This document shows, one piece after another, positions 9,481 to 26,165 of a DNA stretch of 44,975 nucleotides. Source of the DNA: Gammaproteobacteria bacterium (GTDB lineage: Bacteria > Pseudomonadota > Gammaproteobacteria > Chromatiales > Chromatiaceae). A program made the translations under genes and the position numbers. The notes beneath the pieces were generated by a model. The model made no database searches. It was not told where the DNA came from and saw nothing but the letters and a program-made list of their open reading frames with translations. Each line of letters starts with the position of its first letter. The stretch's first letter is position 1. The stretch is from NCBI GenBank assembly GCA_011390365.1, contig JAABSM010000025.1, positions 1 to 44,975 on the forward strand. Reading direction: 5' to 3'.

Positions 9481-9562
9481 TAACCACGAAAAACACGAAA
9501 AACACGAAAAATAAGGAGAATCGGGTGTGATTTTTTCGTGTATTTTGTGTATTTCGTGGTTC
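9481..9562. repeat. ACCACGAAAAACACGAAA-type inverted repeat
   Basis: AACCACGAAAAACACGAAAA on the left faces TTTCGTGTATTTTGTGTATTTCGTGGTT on the right (quoted in part), forming a long imperfect hairpin with a short central loop. Repeats of the ACCACGAA-ACACGAA kind are dispersed in many bacterial genomes. It lies between the convergent mtfA and DUF455 genes, where it may also act as a bidirectional terminator. Confidence 0.7.
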
Positions 9563-9596: not shown

Positions 9597-10427
9597 CTAT
9601 TCTTCTCCAGAACAGCCAAGCGATCTCAGTTCATCCTCGCTGAACCCGGCCTGCCGGCGGGCGGCGCAGTGGAAGGGGCCGTGCCAGGGCTGTTTGGCGT
9701 ATTGGTCGACCAGTTCCCGGTAAGTGCCCTCCGGAGGCAGTGCGCGTTCGCGGCAGAGGTGGCGAAACCAGTAGTCGCCCCGGCCCACATGGCCGATCTC
9801 GTCGCGCAGGATCACTTCCAGGATCTCCACCCCCCGTTCGTCGCCGGCCTCGCGCAGGCGTTTTTGCATGCCCGGATTGACGTCCAGTCCCCGCGCTTCC
9901 AGATAACGAGGTACCAGCGCCATGCGCGCCAGCGGGTCGGCGTCGGTTTTCCGCGCCATCGCCCACAGGCCGTCGTGGACCGGTAGTGCACCATAATCGC
10001 TGCCCAGTTCCCGCAGCCGTTCCCGGATCATGGCGAAGTGCGCCATCTCCTCCTGGGCGACCTTGAGCCAGTCGCGGTGGTAGTCGATCGGCATCTCCGG
10101 GAAGCGGTAGATGGCGTCGAGGGCGAGGTTGATGGCGGAGAATTCGATGTGGGCGATGGCGTGGAAGAGGTGAATGCGGCCCGCATCGCTGCCCGCCCCC
10201 CGTTTGGGGACGAGGTGGGGCTCCACGAAGGTGAGTTGTTGCGGGTAGCCTGGGTGATCGATGGATTCGATCGACAGCGGTGCGCCAGAAAGCCCCTCTC
10301 CCCGAGAGAGAGGGGTTGGGGTGAGGGCATCCATTTCCGCGCCGAGTTGCTTGGATAGCGCTTGCTTCTGCTCCAGCTCCCCGGCGAGCAGCGCCTGATG
10401 GGCGAGTTGCTGAATCTCCGGGATCAC
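9597..10427 (-). CDS. DUF455 ferritin-like protein, last gene of the soe-like operon
   Basis: A 276-residue protein with the ferritin-like DUF455 pattern: RIHLFHAIAHIEFSAINLAL, QEEMAHFAMIRERL and RDEIGHVGRGDYWF supply Glu/His residues of a likely di-iron centre. GTG 10427 overlaps the stop of the anchor-subunit gene (GTGA, 10424-10427), so it is translationally coupled to soeC. The frame stays open further upstream, but that part lies inside soeC in another frame. Residues about 33-48 (LTPTPLSRGEG) are encoded by a REP-type palindrome and look inserted. A role in tRNA modification or metal redox chemistry is possible by analogy with MiaE-like ferritin folds, but its function is unknown. Confidence 0.85.
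   Translation of the reverse strand: MIPEIQQLAHQALLAGELEQKQALSKQLGAEMDALTPTPLSRGEGLSGAPLSIESIDHPGYPQQLTFVEPHLVPKRGAGSDAGRIHLFHAIAHIEFSAINLALDAIYRFPEMPIDYHRDWLKVAQEEMAHFAMIRERLRELGSDYGALPVHDGLWAMARKTDADPLARMALVPRYLEARGLDVNPGMQKRLREAGDERGVEILEVILRDEIGHVGRGDYWFRHLCRERALPPEGTYRELVDQYAKQPWHGPFHCAARRQAGFSEDELRSLGCSGEE
10287..10330. repeat. REP-type palindrome inside the DUF455 gene
   Basis: On the minus strand this reads CCCTCACCCC-AA-CCCCTCTCTCTCGGGGAGAGGGG (quoted in two parts), the same family as the intergenic copy at 17989-18020. It keeps the reading frame open and encodes the LTPTPLSRGEG insertion. Confidence 0.75.
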
Positions 10428-11404
10428 GCCATGGAGCGGTAGTAGAGGTTCTGGGGGTGGGTCGCCTCGGCGAAGAAGTACCAGCGCTCCAGCAGCAGCC
10501 CAAGGTACTGGATGGCGAAGGCGACCAGCGGCAGGGTCGCGGACTCGGTGAAGTAGGCGGCGGCGATCAGCGCGATGGGGAGCGGGAAGACCAGCACCAG
10601 GAAGAGGTACTTGACGGCCTTGAAGGTGGTGGCCGATGCCCCGTGAAAGAACTCGCGGGTATTGAAGGAGCCGCCCATGAAGCCCTGGGCCTTCTGTTCG
10701 ATGGTGTTGTGGCGCACGCCGATGGCGGTCTGGGTGGTGATCTTGTGTTTCAGATGGGCGTTGCGAATCAGGCTCGCGCCGCGGGTGGCAAGACCGACGA
10801 GGGTGAAGATCACCGCCCAGGTGCCGAAGAAGGCGACCAGATCGACGCCGGTCCAGGCCGAGAAGGCGGCGGCGAGCATGAAGCCGGAGGCGATGCCGAG
10901 CAGCGTGTAGTTGGCGACGGTGAGGGGGCTGTGCCACTCTTGCAGGAACTTCACCCCGGCGTAGATCATGGCGGTGCAGATGAACAGGGCGAAGGCGAGC
11001 AGACTGCCGAGCAGGCCGACGATCAGGCTGGCGTCCACCGGCAGGGCGCCCTGGATCACGAACCAGGTCTGGGTCCAGCCCATGTAGTGGATCACGCCAT
11101 AGAGAAACACCATGAACATGAAGGCGGGCAGGATGATCACCTCCCGTGACAGCCACGAGGTCTTCCACTTGGCGATCGCCCGCCAGGCCCGTTCCGGGTG
11201 GCCCAGGTGGAAAAACGACGCGAACAGCCCGCCGCCGAGCAGAATCAGCGCCAGCAGACTGCCCACGCCATAAAAGGCGCTACTGTCCTGGGCCGGCAGC
11301 AGCTTGGCCAGCGAGTAGACCTGGCCGGTGTAGAGGGCGAGAAACAGACCCTGACCGACGCCGATCAGGGTGGTGAGGAAGATTACGGAAAAGGCTGGAT
11401 GCAT
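10424..11404 (-). CDS. soeC: DmsC-type membrane anchor, probable SoeC
   Basis: A 326-residue integral membrane protein with about eight hydrophobic helices and the DmsC family block FHLGHPERAWRAI followed by SWLSRE. It would anchor the SoeAB complex in the cytoplasmic membrane and pass electrons to quinone. It lies downstream of the molybdenum and Fe-S subunits but is separated from soeB by an 886-base repeat-rich insertion. Its ATG 11404 has no recognisable Shine-Dalgarno; heptad repeats begin about six bases upstream. The DmsC-family call is firm. The Soe assignment rests on the three-subunit set, and other DmsABC-type oxidoreductases remain possible. Confidence 0.85.
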   Translation of the reverse strand: MHPAFSVIFLTTLIGVGQGLFLALYTGQVYSLAKLLPAQDSSAFYGVGSLLALILLGGGLFASFFHLGHPERAWRAIAKWKTSWLSREVIILPAFMFMVFLYGVIHYMGWTQTWFVIQGALPVDASLIVGLLGSLLAFALFICTAMIYAGVKFLQEWHSPLTVANYTLLGIASGFMLAAAFSAWTGVDLVAFFGTWAVIFTLVGLATRGASLIRNAHLKHKITTQTAIGVRHNTIEQKAQGFMGGSFNTREFFHGASATTFKAVKYLFLVLVFPLPIALIAAAYFTESATLPLVAFAIQYLGLLLERWYFFAEATHPQNLYYRSMA

Positions 11405-11408
11405 TTTA

Positions 11409-11780
11409 TAAGTACTGAGTGCTGAGTGCTGAGTGCTGAGTTCCTTGGCGAGTACCGAGTACTGAGTACCTAGTACCTAGTACCTAGTACCTAGTACCGA
11501 GTACCTAGTACTGAGTACCTAGTACTGAGTACCTAGTACTGAGTACCTAGTACTGAGTACCTAGTACTGAGTACCTAGTACTGAGTACCTAGTACTGAGT
11601 ACCTAGTACTGAGTACCTAGTACTGAGTACCTAGTACTGAGTACCTAGTACTGAGTACCTAGTGCCTGGTGCTGAGTACTCAGCACTCAGCACTCCGTAC
11701 TCAGCACTCCGTACTCAGCACTCCGTACTCAGCACTCCGTACTCAGCACTCCGTACTCCGTACTCCGTACTCAGCACTTA
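11409..11780. repeat. Heptad tandem array with orientation switch
   Basis: Units of 7 bases (GTGCTGA, GTACTGA, GTACCTA), mostly arranged as 14-mers AGTACTGAGTACCT repeated about a dozen times from about 11500 to 11660. At 11669-11686 a perfect 18-bp palindrome GTGCTGAGTACTCAGCAC marks a switch, after which the units run in the opposite sense (CTCAGCACTCCGTA) to 11779. Confidence 0.9.
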
Positions 11781-11788
11781 CCGAGCGC

Positions 11789-12169
11789 CTAGTTGGAACT
11801 CTCCCTGGTTGAGTTGCGTAAGCCGATAATCAGCTTTTTCACCTCAATGGATAATGCTTGGAGTTCATGAAACTTCTCCTGGTTGATGTAGTGGAGATCG
11901 AGCGCCACGTAGAGCTGGCTTCTAACCTCCGCCAATGATCCTTTGGCAATCGAGAGATAATGGGCGAACTCTCGATTGCTGTATCGTTCAAAACCTTCGG
12001 CGATATTCGACATCACCGAAACCGAAGCGCGCTGTATCTGGCGACAAAGCCCGTAATCCTGACTGAATGGCACTTGGCCGGTTACCCGATAGACCTCCCG
12101 GGTCAGGTCACGTGCCTTTTGCCAGGCAATCAAATGCTCAAAATTTTCAATCTTGCCTTTATAGTTCAT
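11789..12169 (-). CDS. Four-helix-bundle protein (23S rRNA IVP / S23 family)
   Basis: A 126-residue protein with the family hallmarks FEHLIAWQKARDLTREVYRVT, QIQRASVSVMSNIAEGFER, EFAHYLSIAKGSLAEVRSQL and a helical C-terminus. The first and third are quoted in part: LIAWQKARDL, AKGSLAEVRSQL. Relatives are encoded in 23S rRNA intervening sequences and, more distantly, as the Avd accessory protein of diversity-generating retroelements; they form basic multimeric bundles that may bind nucleic acid. No reverse transcriptase or rRNA is nearby. It shares the strand of the soe genes and would be carried on their mRNA. GGGG lies four bases before ATG 12169. Heptad arrays start within ten bases of both gene ends. 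Confidence 0.88.
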   Translation of the reverse strand: MNYKGKIENFEHLIAWQKARDLTREVYRVTGQVPFSQDYGLCRQIQRASVSVMSNIAEGFERYSNREFAHYLSIAKGSLAEVRSQLYVALDLHYINQEKFHELQALSIEVKKLIIGLRNSTRESSN

Positions 12170-12177
12170 AATCCCCA

Positions 12178-12289
12178 GTACTCAGCACTCCGTACTCAGC
12201 ACTCCGTACTCAGCACTCCGTACTCAGCACTCCGTACTCAGCACTCCGTACTCAGCACTCCGTACTCAGCACTCCGTACTCAGCACTCG
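12178..12289. repeat. 14-bp tandem array (double heptads), eight copies
   Basis: CTCAGCACTCCGTA repeats eight times with essentially no variation from about 12181 to 12288. The array ends two to three bases from the soeB stop codon (TAA, 12291-12293) and begins just upstream of the four-helix-bundle gene. Confidence 0.92.
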
Positions 12290-12290
12290 A

Positions 12291-13016
12291 TTACCAAGCC
12301 ACATCATCGAGGGTGTCCACATCTTCCGGCAGCGCCGCGAGGTCCTCTTTCACCAGCGGGTTGTCGCTGCGCACCAGCTCATCTTCGTGGATGTGGATGC
12401 GTACCTTGCGGCGCGGCAGGTAGTGGTTGGCCGGCTGGGTTCCCCACTCGGGCTGCAACTGATAGCCGCCGCGCTCGCGAATCGCCACCGAGACCTCGGA
12501 GTCCGGGTCGTGCACGTCGCCGTAGAGGCGGGCGTTGGTGGGGCAGGAGAGGACGCAGGCCGGTTTGCGCTCCGCCTCCGGCAGGGTCATGTCGGTGATG
12601 CGGTCGATGCACAGGGTGCACTTCTTCATCACCTTGTTCTTCTCGTCGAACTCACGTACGCCGTAGGGGCAGGCCCAGGAGCAGTATTTGCAGCCGATGC
12701 ACTTGTCGTAGTCCACCAGCACCACGCCATTGTCCTCGCGCTTGTAGCTCGCCCCGGTGGGGCAGACCGGCACACAGGGCGGCTCCTCGCAATGCAGGCA
12801 GGACTTGGGGAAGTGCAGGGTCTCCGTATTGGGAAACTTGCCGATCTCGAAGGTCTGCACCCGATTGAAGAAGGTCCCGCTGGGGTCTGCTTCATAGGGG
12901 TTCTGGTCCGGCAAGGGACCGGCCCAGCCGGAGGTGTTCCACTGCTTGCAACTGGTCACGCAGGCGTGACAGCCGACGCAGACGTTGAGATCGATAACCA
13001 GGGCGAGTTGAGTCAT
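12291..13016 (-). CDS. soeB: Four-cluster ferredoxin subunit, probable SoeB
   Basis: A 241-residue iron-sulfur protein of the DmsB/PsrB type. Cysteine groups suited to four [4Fe-4S] clusters are visible: CVGCHACVTSC (residues 13-23), CLHCEEPPCVPVCP, CIGCKYCSWACP and CTLCIDR with a later CVLSCP. It would carry electrons from the molybdenum subunit to the membrane anchor. No signal peptide is present, in line with the cytoplasmic orientation reported for SoeABC. Its ATG 13016 overlaps the stop of an aspartyl protease gene by four bases (ATGA), so its translation is probably coupled to that inserted gene and not directly to soeA. Confidence 0.9.
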   Translation of the reverse strand: MTQLALVIDLNVCVGCHACVTSCKQWNTSGWAGPLPDQNPYEADPSGTFFNRVQTFEIGKFPNTETLHFPKSCLHCEEPPCVPVCPTGASYKREDNGVVLVDYDKCIGCKYCSWACPYGVREFDEKNKVMKKCTLCIDRITDMTLPEAERKPACVLSCPTNARLYGDVHDPDSEVSVAIRERGGYQLQPEWGTQPANHYLPRRKVRIHIHEDELVRSDNPLVKEDLAALPEDVDTLDDVAW

Positions 13017-13399
13017 ACTGCTAACCGAATTTCCAATGCTTTCATGTCAATAATAGCGCCGACCGCGAGCAGGAAGTCGTTTCCCAGGATCCCGTCGATG
13101 GGGAATCCGTAATCCATGGCGCCGATTTCGATTTCCACTTTACTCTTGCTGATCGTATCAAGGGCAAGAAGATCGATCGTCTTGGTGAACACGAACTCCG
13201 TTCCGTCGACGCCCGCGATTCGGTGAATCGCATCCTGGGGTTCGAGCGCGACCCCGATTTCAGCAACCTTGTCAGCCGCAAATACGGACCTAGCAGAGCC
13301 CGTGTCGATCAGAGCGTTCGGTAACCGAATCTCTCGGTTGCCATAAACCAATTTGGCCTCGACAAATGGCAGCCCATCCTGGACTCTGAAGCCAATCAA
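13013..13399 (-). CDS. Retropepsin-like aspartyl protease, coupled to soeB
   Basis: A 128-residue protein with the clan-AA catalytic motif IDTGSARSVF (Asp32-Thr33-Gly34) and the partner motif GILGNDFL at residues 103-110. Retropepsin-like enzymes of this size act as homodimers, each chain giving one catalytic Asp. No signal peptide, so it should be cytoplasmic. The start ATG 13399 overlaps the stop of the 85-aa gene and its own stop overlaps soeB, both by four bases. Its substrate is unknown; the position raises the question of a link to Soe subunits, but genomic hitchhiking is equally possible. Confidence 0.85.
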   Translation of the reverse strand: MIGFRVQDGLPFVEAKLVYGNREIRLPNALIDTGSARSVFAADKVAEIGVALEPQDAIHRIAGVDGTEFVFTKTIDLLALDTISKSKVEIEIGAMDYGFPIDGILGNDFLLAVGAIIDMKALEIRLAV

Positions 13400-13653
13400 C
13401 GCCCTCTTACTCCGATCCAGTGGCGCTCGCCGATATTCGGCTCATTACGGTCCGTGTGCAGGACGTAAAGTTCACGCTGCGGCGACTCATGATGAAGCTT
13501 CTGGTAGTCGCGCATTGCCTCTTGCGAATCGGCGAATATGCCTAACAGCGCAAGCTCGTCGAGCACCCGCTCACCTGCACGAGAGTGGGCCTTGGTTGCT
13601 TCGATCAGGACCCATTGGTGGGGGTGCGTGTCTCGTATTTGCCGCCAGTTCAT
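13396..13653 (-). CDS. Small conserved-looking protein paired with the aspartyl protease
   Basis: An 85-residue protein beginning MNWRQIRDTHPHQWVLIEA and ending RELYVLHTDRNEPNIGERHW plus a short tail. I cannot name a family. My recollection is that similar short proteins sit next to retropepsin-like proteases in cyanobacteria, but I cannot check this. It overlaps DUF433 upstream and the protease downstream by four bases each (ATGA), so the three are made as a coupled set. No membrane or signal segment is present. Confidence 0.75.
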   Translation of the reverse strand: MNWRQIRDTHPHQWVLIEATKAHSRAGERVLDELALLGIFADSQEAMRDYQKLHHESPQRELYVLHTDRNEPNIGERHWIGVRGR

Positions 13654-13898
13654 TTGCGGTACTCCGCAATGGAAACGCAGCCGTTATGGTTCGACATACC
13701 CCGATCATCCCCGTAGGCAAGACAGGCGAGGATGTCCTGTTCGGTGAGCTTGGGGAAATCATCGATGATTTCACTGAAACTCATGCCGTTCGCGAGCATG
13801 CTCAGTACATCGTATACCGTGATGCGCAAGCCGCGTATGCAGGGTTTGCCTGAGCGTTTTCCTGGCTCGATGGTGATGTATTCTTTGTAGTCGATCAT
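13650..13898 (-). CDS. DUF433 protein (antitoxin-like)
   Basis: An 82-residue DUF433 protein: ITIEPGKRSGKPCIRGLRITVYDVL (quoted in part: GKRSGKPCIRGLRITVYDVL) followed by MSFSEIIDDFPKLTEQDILACLAY, which fits a winged or ribbon helix-turn-helix. DUF433 proteins are usually paired with a DUF5615 PIN-like toxin; that partner is absent and the next gene is the unrelated 85-aa protein. It begins 10 bases after the stop of the first aspartyl protease gene. It may be a DNA-binding regulator of this small module. Confidence 0.85.
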   Translation of the reverse strand: MIDYKEYITIEPGKRSGKPCIRGLRITVYDVLSMLANGMSFSEIIDDFPKLTEQDILACLAYGDDRGMSNHNGCVSIAEYRK

Positions 13899-13908
13899 GG
13901 TTCCACCC

Positions 13909-14304
13909 TCACTTCTGCTCTTGCCAAACGCGCGGCGCCACCTTCTTCAACCGCGTCGCAGGCATCCGCTTCAGCTGCTGGTTGCGCGGATCGATATTTA
14001 TGCCCACCGACTCCAGCGCGGTAACGCCGAGTATTGGTTCGGTTCCGGGTTCCGCGAAGATGATCGTGCCGCCGACGATCTCTCCCATGAATTTGATATC
14101 GCCGGTGGTGATGTCCATCTTGATCTCACTGCCGTCGGCAAGCTCGTAGGTGCGTTGCGCCTTTGCTTGCAAGCCGATGGACTCCAGGGCGTCTCGCGGT
14201 ACCAGTGAATCGATGGCCCCGGAATCTACCAGAAACAAACCTACCCACGCCTTTTCCGGCATCGCCGGATTGCGGATGGTGACCGTTACATGCGTCGCGT
14301 CCAT
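13909..14304 (-). CDS. Clan AA aspartyl protease (second copy)
   Basis: A 131-residue protein with VDSGAIDSLVP (catalytic Asp27) and EPILGVTALESVG near residues 89-101, as in the AF_0612-like clan AA aspartic protease family. It is only distantly similar to the protease at 13013-13399, so this is not a recent duplication. ATG 14304 (MDATHVTVTIRNP) is chosen because family-like sequence starts there; an upstream start at 14433 would cross a hairpin repeat. It is the first gene after soeA on the same strand. Confidence 0.8.
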   Translation of the reverse strand: MDATHVTVTIRNPAMPEKAWVGLFLVDSGAIDSLVPRDALESIGLQAKAQRTYELADGSEIKMDITTGDIKFMGEIVGGTIIFAEPGTEPILGVTALESVGINIDPRNQQLKRMPATRLKKVAPRVWQEQK

Positions 14305-14318
14305 GATTTGCTCTCGTA

Positions 14319-14418
14319 ACACCGCTCCTGCGGTGTTATGTATCTTCAGGCGCTCCGCGCCGAACGTGTGTCGCAGCGCGGGAGCGCTGGCGGATCGGTT
14401 ACACCGCAGGAGCGGTGT
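14319..14418. repeat. Paired 18-bp hairpins in inverted orientation
   Basis: ACACCGCTCCTGCGGTGT at 14319-14336 and its exact reverse complement at 14401-14418. Each copy is itself a hairpin (7-bp stem, 4-base loop). The 64 bases between contain further GC stems. The pair lies between the soeA stop and the first aspartyl protease. Confidence 0.8.
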
Positions 14419-14466
14419 AACCAGAAAAACCACTTGTGCTCACACCGTCTCAGGGCTGTATTCTAA

Positions 14467-14508
14467 ACTCAGCACTCAGCACTCAGCACTCAGCACTCAG
14501 CACTCAGG
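14467..14508. repeat. Heptad array at the soeA stop codon
   Basis: Five full ACTCAGC units plus a partial one. On the coding strand they read TGAGTGC repeated, and the first TGA is the stop codon of soeA (14504-14506). The unit matches the arrays on either side of the four-helix-bundle gene. Confidence 0.9.

Positions 14509-21875: not shown

Positions 21876-26165
<4,290 letters not shown>

Follow-up and report, generated by a model that had tools for sequence, protein, structure and literature searches.

Inverted arrays of seven-nucleotide repeats around S23 (IVP-type) genes: a recurrent bacterial unit, found here between two subunit genes of a molybdopterin enzyme operon

That S23 (IVP, PF05635) genes stand between inverted tandem arrays of 7-nt units in many bacterial groups is, in our opinion, nearly certain. 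The locus described here, in which such a gene separates two genes of one operon, would be one instance of this widespread unit, and we moderately favour the view that S23 protein and heptads work together as a mobile or satellite system resembling that of REPINs. S23/IVP genes have been known for decades from rRNA intervening sequences and, to our knowledge, have no settled function, and in many bacterial genomes heptanucleotides have been noted as the most frequent of the long simple repeats, their cause being equally unsettled. Should S23 protein and heptad array prove to be partners, these two old puzzles may share one answer.

Results

Organization of the locus

The window, i.e. the whole stretch of 44,975 nt that was analysed, is contig C87 of a 4.26-Mb draft genome and carries a minus-strand operon for a molybdopterin enzyme. 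Its genes had been named soeA, soeB and soeC; profile matches (molybdopterin oxidoreductase, 4Fe-4S, DmsC-like anchor) uphold the subunit types but give no support to the specific enzyme. The features are the following, in the order of the operon:

17413-14504, minus strand: catalytic subunit, soeA-like (molybdopterin oxidoreductase), profile match
14467..14507, minus strand: lone six-copy array, ACTCAGC on the plus strand, a dispersed single arm without IVP gene, overlapping the end of the soeA-like gene
12291..13016, minus strand: 4Fe-4S subunit, soeB-like, host gene upstream in the operon, ORF and profile match
12176..12288, minus strand: soeB-side array, ACTCAGC / ACTCCGT on the plus strand, AGT-type on the transcribed strand
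11789..12169, minus strand: IVP / S23 gene, 126 aa, PF05635 / TIGR02436, profile match
about 11678-11778, minus strand: second array, ACTCAGC / ACTCCGT on the plus strand, AGT-type on the transcribed strand
11449 to about 11680, plus strand: long heptad array, AGTACTG / AGTACCT alternating (14-nt super-unit)
11411..11441, plus strand: outer part of the soeC-side array, about 4.4 heptads, AGTGCTG sense
10424..11404, minus strand: DmsC-like anchor, soeC-like, host gene downstream in the operon, ORF and profile match

The soeB-soeC gap spans 11405-12290 (886 nt; the soeC-like ORF starts at 11404 and the soeB-like one ends at 12291, both on the minus strand). It had been described as filled by array, gene and array, and indeed the heptad arrays and the PF05635 gene cover about 855 of the 886 nt, with Tandem Repeats Finder scores of up to 370. 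In the transcript the order is soeB, an AGT array (12288-12176) upstream of the IVP start codon, the S23 gene, another AGT array (11778-11678), an ACT array (11680-11411) and soeC, the array at 11449..11680 being an ACT-type arm when read on the transcribed minus strand. The proposed inversion of the arrays stands in so far as complementary arms flank the gene; the left flank, however, is compound, and only the long ACT array on the soeC side is the inverted partner. This array can pair with both AGT arrays. It abuts the second one (79% complementary over 101 nt, zero loop), and its segment 11569-11680 forms with 12177-12288 an inverted pair of 112 nt at 72% complementarity; 31-nt inverted pairs at 90% are also present in the gap. 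Because the left flank is compound, our automatic measure gives this locus 5/7 for both the inverted and the direct match.

A transcript folding with the gene inside long stems, as first suggested, agrees with the predicted RNA fold of the gap: its energy is far below that of 20 shuffled sequences (-461.8 versus -299.4 +/- 9.0 kcal/mol, z -18), with both AGT arrays paired to the long ACT array and the S23 gene occupying a branch.

PF05635 is the sole gene between the arrays; neither a transposase of the kind expected of an insertion sequence or MITE nor a RAYT (HUH tyrosine) transposase was found there. The S23 ORF is enclosed by terminal inverted repeats, as in 23S rRNA intervening sequences, but the unit lies between two protein genes, and the window has no Rfam match over the gathering score.

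The neighbouring soeA-soeB gap (13013-14433) holds a clan AA aspartic protease (TIGR03698), a DUF433 gene, an ORF without family match and a second protease-like ORF.

The S23 protein

The assignment of the encoded protein to the IVP family, made at the outset from sequence alone, is secure, with 134.6 bits against PF05635 (cut-off 33.8) and 123.9 bits against TIGR02436 (cut-off 24). Its predicted structure is a four-helix bundle (pLDDT 93.6). The nearest solved folds are 2GSC, which is XCC0516 of Xanthomonas campestris, and 2RLD, followed by Avd of diversity-generating retroelements (DGR), alone and in complex with the DGR reverse transcriptase; TM-scores by query length are 0.80-0.85 for the 2GSC chains and 0.69-0.77 for the Avd folds. 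The 2GSC and 2RLD entries contain five chains each, and we take these S23 proteins to be pentamers like Avd. We know of no catalytic site in S23 proteins. Avd works with RNA and a reverse transcriptase, and nucleic-acid binding is therefore the natural guess for the S23 protein as well; we regard it as an Avd-fold protein that probably binds nucleic acid. The sequence likeness is weak, and the protein misses the cut-offs of both Avd profiles (NF033474, 28.5 bits versus 80; bAvd, 30.3 versus 40). That PF05635 resembles Avd has been published before (PMC10053308).

The soeB-soeC gap in other genomes

The gap was compared in nine other genomes that have the soeB-soeC gene pair, and the S23 gene is absent from it in eight of them. 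Six members of the window's family (G004, G005, G007, G009, G010, G011) and one of its class (G023) have only 12-127 nt between the two genes, as expected if the unit was inserted between two subunits, which had been proposed. G001, of the window's genus, has an 849-nt gap (G001:C210, L213) with a different small ORF and no PF05635 match there; this ORF, we believe, resembles a PIN-type toxin. G003, of a different genus, contains the decayed remains of an S23 gene, interrupted by an in-frame stop, together with eroded arrays or heptad traces. Since the gap lacks the gene in eight of nine genomes and the remaining one has a decayed copy, the gene is an insert, and probably an old one.

The G003 insert lies in the same gap and orientation as that of the window and is, among the loci compared, the closest DNA relative of the window S23 gene (69.5% over 321 nt). 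The two are probably one old insertion; two separate insertions are possible, the margin of G003 over other loci being small. The gap sequence is too diverged between relatives to define a target-site duplication. On G003:C82, a 27-residue piece like the soeB N-terminus is located about 1.7 kb upstream of soeB. This piece and the G001 ORF make the soe operon an apparent hot spot of small insertions.

Arms around S23 genes across bacteria

PF05635 loci were gathered in three ways, all blind to the flanks: from 38 genomes of relatives (12 with a PF05635 match, 10 over the cut-off), from 398 Pseudomonadota genomes (62 matching, 58 of them above the cut-off) and as a named set, the best 80 of 446 loci, the query being the window protein aligned with two relatives. 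The named loci are labelled with 19 phyla by record titles, many being metagenome bins; some labels are wrong, since L095 (titled Spirochaetaceae) and L096 (titled Deltaproteobacteria) have identical sequence around the S23 gene. From the 168 pooled loci we dropped L055, L056 and L060 (HMM match absent), L062 and L210 (repeats of L061 and L090) and L096 and L200 (exact duplicates), which left 161 distinct loci, 79 of them named and 156 with both flanks of at least 150 nt. The 93 match rows of the Pseudomonadota sample divide into 30 with loci, 39 added (40 regions, one a repeat), one identical to L002 and 23 omitted, mostly weak, split or second matches.

Around the named loci, period-7 arrays (score at least 14, within 300 nt) occupy 41 of 74 left and 46 of 79 right flanks, compared with 100 of 2145 distant windows of the S23-bearing contigs. 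Other periods between 2 and 20 occur 0-2 times per side, except 14; only periods 7 and 14 stand out, which rules out chance repeats. Of 73 named S23 loci, 44 have both arms with inverted-matching units, versus 6 of 488 other genes of the same contigs, predicted by a simple longest-ORF rule (p 4e-39); 5 of 147 control genes of 100-200 codons have them. Five of the six positive controls are themselves S23 genes unused by the first search (five of seven such S23 controls have these arms). The arms are therefore not a general property of genes on these contigs: a single one of the 481 non-S23 controls has them, and its polarity is reversed. Single arms at a low threshold are common near control genes (94 left and 108 right of 488); thus it is the matched inverted pair that marks an S23 gene.

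The initial annotation had made its reading depend on array-gene-array loci existing in related genomes, and they are numerous. At a score of at least 9, 91 of the 156 two-flank loci have two arms, 46 one and 19 none. An inverted match of at least 6/7 is reached at 45 of 77 named loci versus 28 of 79 from the window's genome, the relatives and the Pseudomonadota sample, and loci without any arm number 0 of 77 versus 19 of 79 in the same two sets. Common as it is, the layout is less marked beyond the subfamily to which the window protein belongs.

Scanning the surroundings of the 80 named loci for inverted pairs separated by 150-1500 nt gave 20 rows. Five of them (four genes: L101, L127, L164, L167) enclose further S23 genes; in twelve the polarity is opposite and the enclosed genes are others; the remaining three, all at L123, are correctly oriented but contain no S23 gene (loops of 184, 413 and 1071 nt). 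Phage records gave no match; among plasmid records 25 matched, mostly cyanobacterial. L123 (titled Desulfobulbaceae) carries at least three unlike heptad families (CCTTGAA, AGAGGCA, TGAGGAC) on 16 kb with two S23 genes.

Unit, polarity and protein

The arms of one locus share their heptad unit, which varies between loci. For the 91 two-arm loci, the mean inverted unit match is 6.16/7 versus 4.14 +/- 0.10 when right arms are dealt among loci; the inverted match is the better one in 82, the direct one in 8, and one locus is equal. Polarity is also constrained: the arm before the S23 gene has G>C in 85 of 94 cases and the arm after it G<C in 95 of 104. Moreover, heptad similarity tracks protein identity (137 loci with an arm score of at least 10; none of 500 permutations as high), units matching at 6 or 7 of 7 positions in 27% of pairs at 60-80% protein identity versus 3% at 30-50%. 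This link fits joint transfer as well as recognition.

Mutation bias of the host alone is ruled out as the origin of the units, S23 genes of one genome mostly carrying unlike ones: among ten same-genome pairs with units, two match at 6 of 7 and eight at 5 or fewer. The window's genome has just two PF05635 matches. The second gene lies on contig C128, represents a divergent branch (18% identity) and is flanked by inverted, degenerate heptads; by eye, the two units are AGTGCTG and, on C128, GAAGTTT.

Inheritance, selection and movement

Many close S23 pairs occupy a shared place in related species and are therefore vertically inherited. In 16 of 18 shared-site pairs dN/dS is 0.03-0.26 (two with saturated dS); of the other two, one shows no amino-acid change and one (window/G003) has no dS value. 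These ratios indicate that the S23 gene is under purifying selection at sites common to species. Arm length differs in most, but not all, of the 18 orthologous pairs.

Other comparisons bear on movement. S23 proteins 75-83% identical occur in differently labelled phyla with flank similarity absent, for example L150 (a deltaproteobacterial bin) and L129 (a Nostoc contig), where bin contamination is possible, and one genome has two 83% identical copies at different places (L198, L211). The S23 protein tree contains 36 phylum changes, which are only a hint of transfer since few of its branches are firm (8 starred of 77). Genome comparisons revealed no fresh insertion, excision or target duplication. 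L199 and L200 (G253:C1:1861760-1866083 and 2098178-2102501) are identical stretches of 4324 nt, each with an S23 gene; we rejected them as a jump of the unit, the event being a segmental duplication of at least 4.3 kb.

Gene-less arrays and their co-occurrence with PF05635

Tandem 7-nt units lie between genes at the window's locus and elsewhere in its genome. AGTGCTG-kind arrays are present at seven further places (C22, C99, C111, C113, C116, C121 and window 14467-14507), those on C22 and C99 being gene-less inverted pairs with short loops. Gene-flanking inverted repeats thus coexist with dispersed gene-less copies, as in REPIN / RAYT systems. In G013, 15 array places were examined: 11 are single-armed and four two-armed, with loops of 12-56 nt, one of the latter (L246) having an unlike second unit.

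Across the 398 genomes, at least three hits of AGTNNNN arrays are found in 32 of 58 PF05635 genomes versus 15 of 340 others (odds ratio 27, p 3e-20), as raw genome counts that ignore kinship and with four genomes having only sub-cut-off PF05635 matches counted as lacking the gene. Among the relatives, where G001 and G019 were counted likewise, at least five hits occur in 7 of 10 genomes with PF05635 versus 1 of 28 without, the latter being G001 (32.7 bits versus 33.8). Genomes with and without PF05635 were compared instead of using the reversed pattern, which is unusable as a control: TGANNNN also reads heptad arrays and in array-rich genomes can be as high or higher (87/123 against 95/85 in G013, 82/84 against 192/211 in G003), and the GAAGTTT pattern is identical to its own reverse, leaving that control empty. 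For one precise unit, AGTAGGC, the link is specific. All six genomes whose analysed S23 gene has it contain such arrays, and in every one of them at least one copy lies apart from the gene; five of the six belong to one genus. Among the 392 other genomes, five have AGTAGGC arrays, and three of these five have a PF05635 gene (p 9e-11).

The correspondence is incomplete on both sides. No AGTNNNN hit occurs in 18 of the 58 PF05635 genomes, and 13 Pseudomonadota genomes with at least five hits are below the cut-off for both PF05635 and TIGR02436 (G043, G077, G133, G216, G241, G324, G339, G342, G348, G376, G386, G398, G429). Seven of these have S23-carrying congeners in the sample, so that loss of the gene after spread is possible. 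Near the 80 named loci, the resemblance between arrays lying over 1 kb from the gene and the unit of the S23 gene itself exceeds chance only modestly (4.67 versus 4.30 +/- 0.09; 38 of 147 at 6 or more). Since 46 of these 147 lie inside open stretches of at least 200 codons, the dispersed arrays are partly not plainly intergenic.

Discussion

A unit related to known systems but distinct from them

The layout had been likened to that of 23S rRNA intervening sequences (IVS), and the kinship turns out to be closer still. As described in PMC4990558, the Coxiella IVS has an S23 ORF between inverted repeats, preceded by three GACAGAT heptads whose number is strain-dependent; RNase III cuts it, with a site at the first heptad repeat, and mobility has been proposed for S23-type intervening elements. 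Unlike this IVS, the window unit stands between protein genes, its inverted repeats are themselves tandem heptad arrays, and similar arrays are dispersed in the genome.

RAYT genes are kept by selection and flanked by inverted repeats whose relatives disperse as inverted pairs, the REPINs. The S23 unit likewise combines a selected gene, inverted repeat flanks and dispersed inverted-pair relatives, but it has no tyrosine (HUH) transposase between its arms, and tandem heptads replace the palindromes. We file the window unit as a kind of its own, distinguished from IVS by its location outside rRNA and from RAYT loci by the lack of a RAYT transposase between the arms.

Heptad arrays, many of them intergenic, have also been described in Xanthomonas and Nostoc (GGGAATC, GGGGA(T/C)T); according to PMC4692102, the GGGAATC heptads of Xanthomonas campestris form 70 convergent pairs and are generally not tied to mobile elements. 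One of our loci, L209, has CGGGAAT arms around a PF05635 gene, to be compared with that repeat. The terms S23 and four helix are absent from the main text of PMC4692102 and PMC4679880, and XCC0516 from the former paper. Among the matches listed from the open-access literature, we found no link of S23 genes to heptad arrays beyond the Coxiella case, and priority is not certain.

A possible division of labour between gene and arrays

In the scheme that we prefer, the unit would have entered the soeB-soeC gap in the window's lineage. The S23 protein would most likely recognise its own heptad arrays, as DNA or as an RNA hairpin, and assist their copying to further intergenic sites, whereby gene-bearing units would gain gene-less satellites in the form of short-loop inverted pairs or single arms. 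Labour would be split as between RAYT genes and REPINs, though the protein is unrelated to RAYT and the repeat is of another kind. The anatomy and its generality, arm matching, polarity, the link of heptads to protein subfamilies and their co-occurrence with the gene are observed, as are purifying selection and gene-free sites; from them we infer recognition, spread by transposition and a source for the enzyme. If true, a mobile or satellite system would exist that encodes no recognisable nuclease or recombinase itself, and the nucleic acid bound, the specificity for the unit and the spread of arrays with an active gene would become testable together.

A broader version would make S23 genes and heptads one ancient, cross-phylum class of mobile satellites, with every subfamily recognising and spreading a unit of its own, accounting for most of the heptanucleotide excess long noted in scattered bacterial genomes and including the rRNA IVS; this extension is tentative, and we hold it slightly more doubtful than probable. 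The 23S rRNA intervening sequences may be one form of the S23-heptad unit, the best hint, by analogy, being the Coxiella heptads.

Alternative readings

The initial annotation emphasised the RNA level: the arrays would pair, RNase III would cut the stem, free the gene and separate the soeC message from that of soeAB, and heptads would simply be the form taken by the stem. The strong predicted fold argues for this, as does the Coxiella IVS with its inverted repeats, RNase III cuts and heptads. An excision role leaves the gene-less pairs and single arms unexplained, and as an account of the whole we consider it unlikely, though less so than the readings that follow. It is compatible with the mobile unit; a mobile or satellite-spreading unit, rather than RNA cleavage as the main point, is the best-supported reading.

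The arrays could instead be host features born of polymerase slippage, in or beside which S23 genes land as safe sites. An earlier survey, as recounted in PMC4679880, put heptanucleotides first among the long repeats in most of the genomes it covered and suggested slippage as their origin; in our data, most orthologous loci differ in arm length, a direct match of 6/7 or more is seen at 8 of the 91 two-arm loci, and the window gene looks placed inside an AGT array. Slippage alone would give, however, neither a same-unit inverted partner, nor a fixed polarity, nor a heptad-protein subfamily link, nor an excess of arrays in PF05635 genomes, and we judge this reading quite improbable.

Still less probable is an RNA-templated mobile unit, in which the S23 protein, like Avd, would act with a host reverse transcriptase on hairpin RNA and heptads would grow by repeated copying of a short template. 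The Avd folds, next after 2GSC and 2RLD, the weak bAvd match and the published likeness of the families speak for it. Counted per genome in the 38 relatives, reverse transcriptases are present in 7 of 10 with PF05635 and 14 of 28 others; no clear link appears, and dependence on such an enzyme finds no support. Moreover, the array-rich G002 and G030 show none in assemblies that are 83% and 75% complete.

Finally, upstream heptads might act in ribosome binding or regulation, either of the S23 gene or of the host gene that follows. This would agree with the G-richness of upstream arms (GAG in 72 of 128 heptad units, GGA in 31) and with the TAACTGA repeats of Beggiatoaceae, intergenic, before start codons and possibly regulatory according to PMC4679880, but would explain neither the downstream inverted arm nor the genome-wide link to PF05635, and we give this reading very little credit.

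Other repeats in the window

Two short 9-nt arrays, CACGAAAAA (x3) and TTTCGTGTA (x2.8), are found at 9485-9558; they are separated by about 22 nt and in part mutually inverted. Positions 24036-24164 are occupied by a 21-nt/42-nt tandem repeat (CAGCTCCTCGTT...) which, judged by its period, is probably in a coding region.
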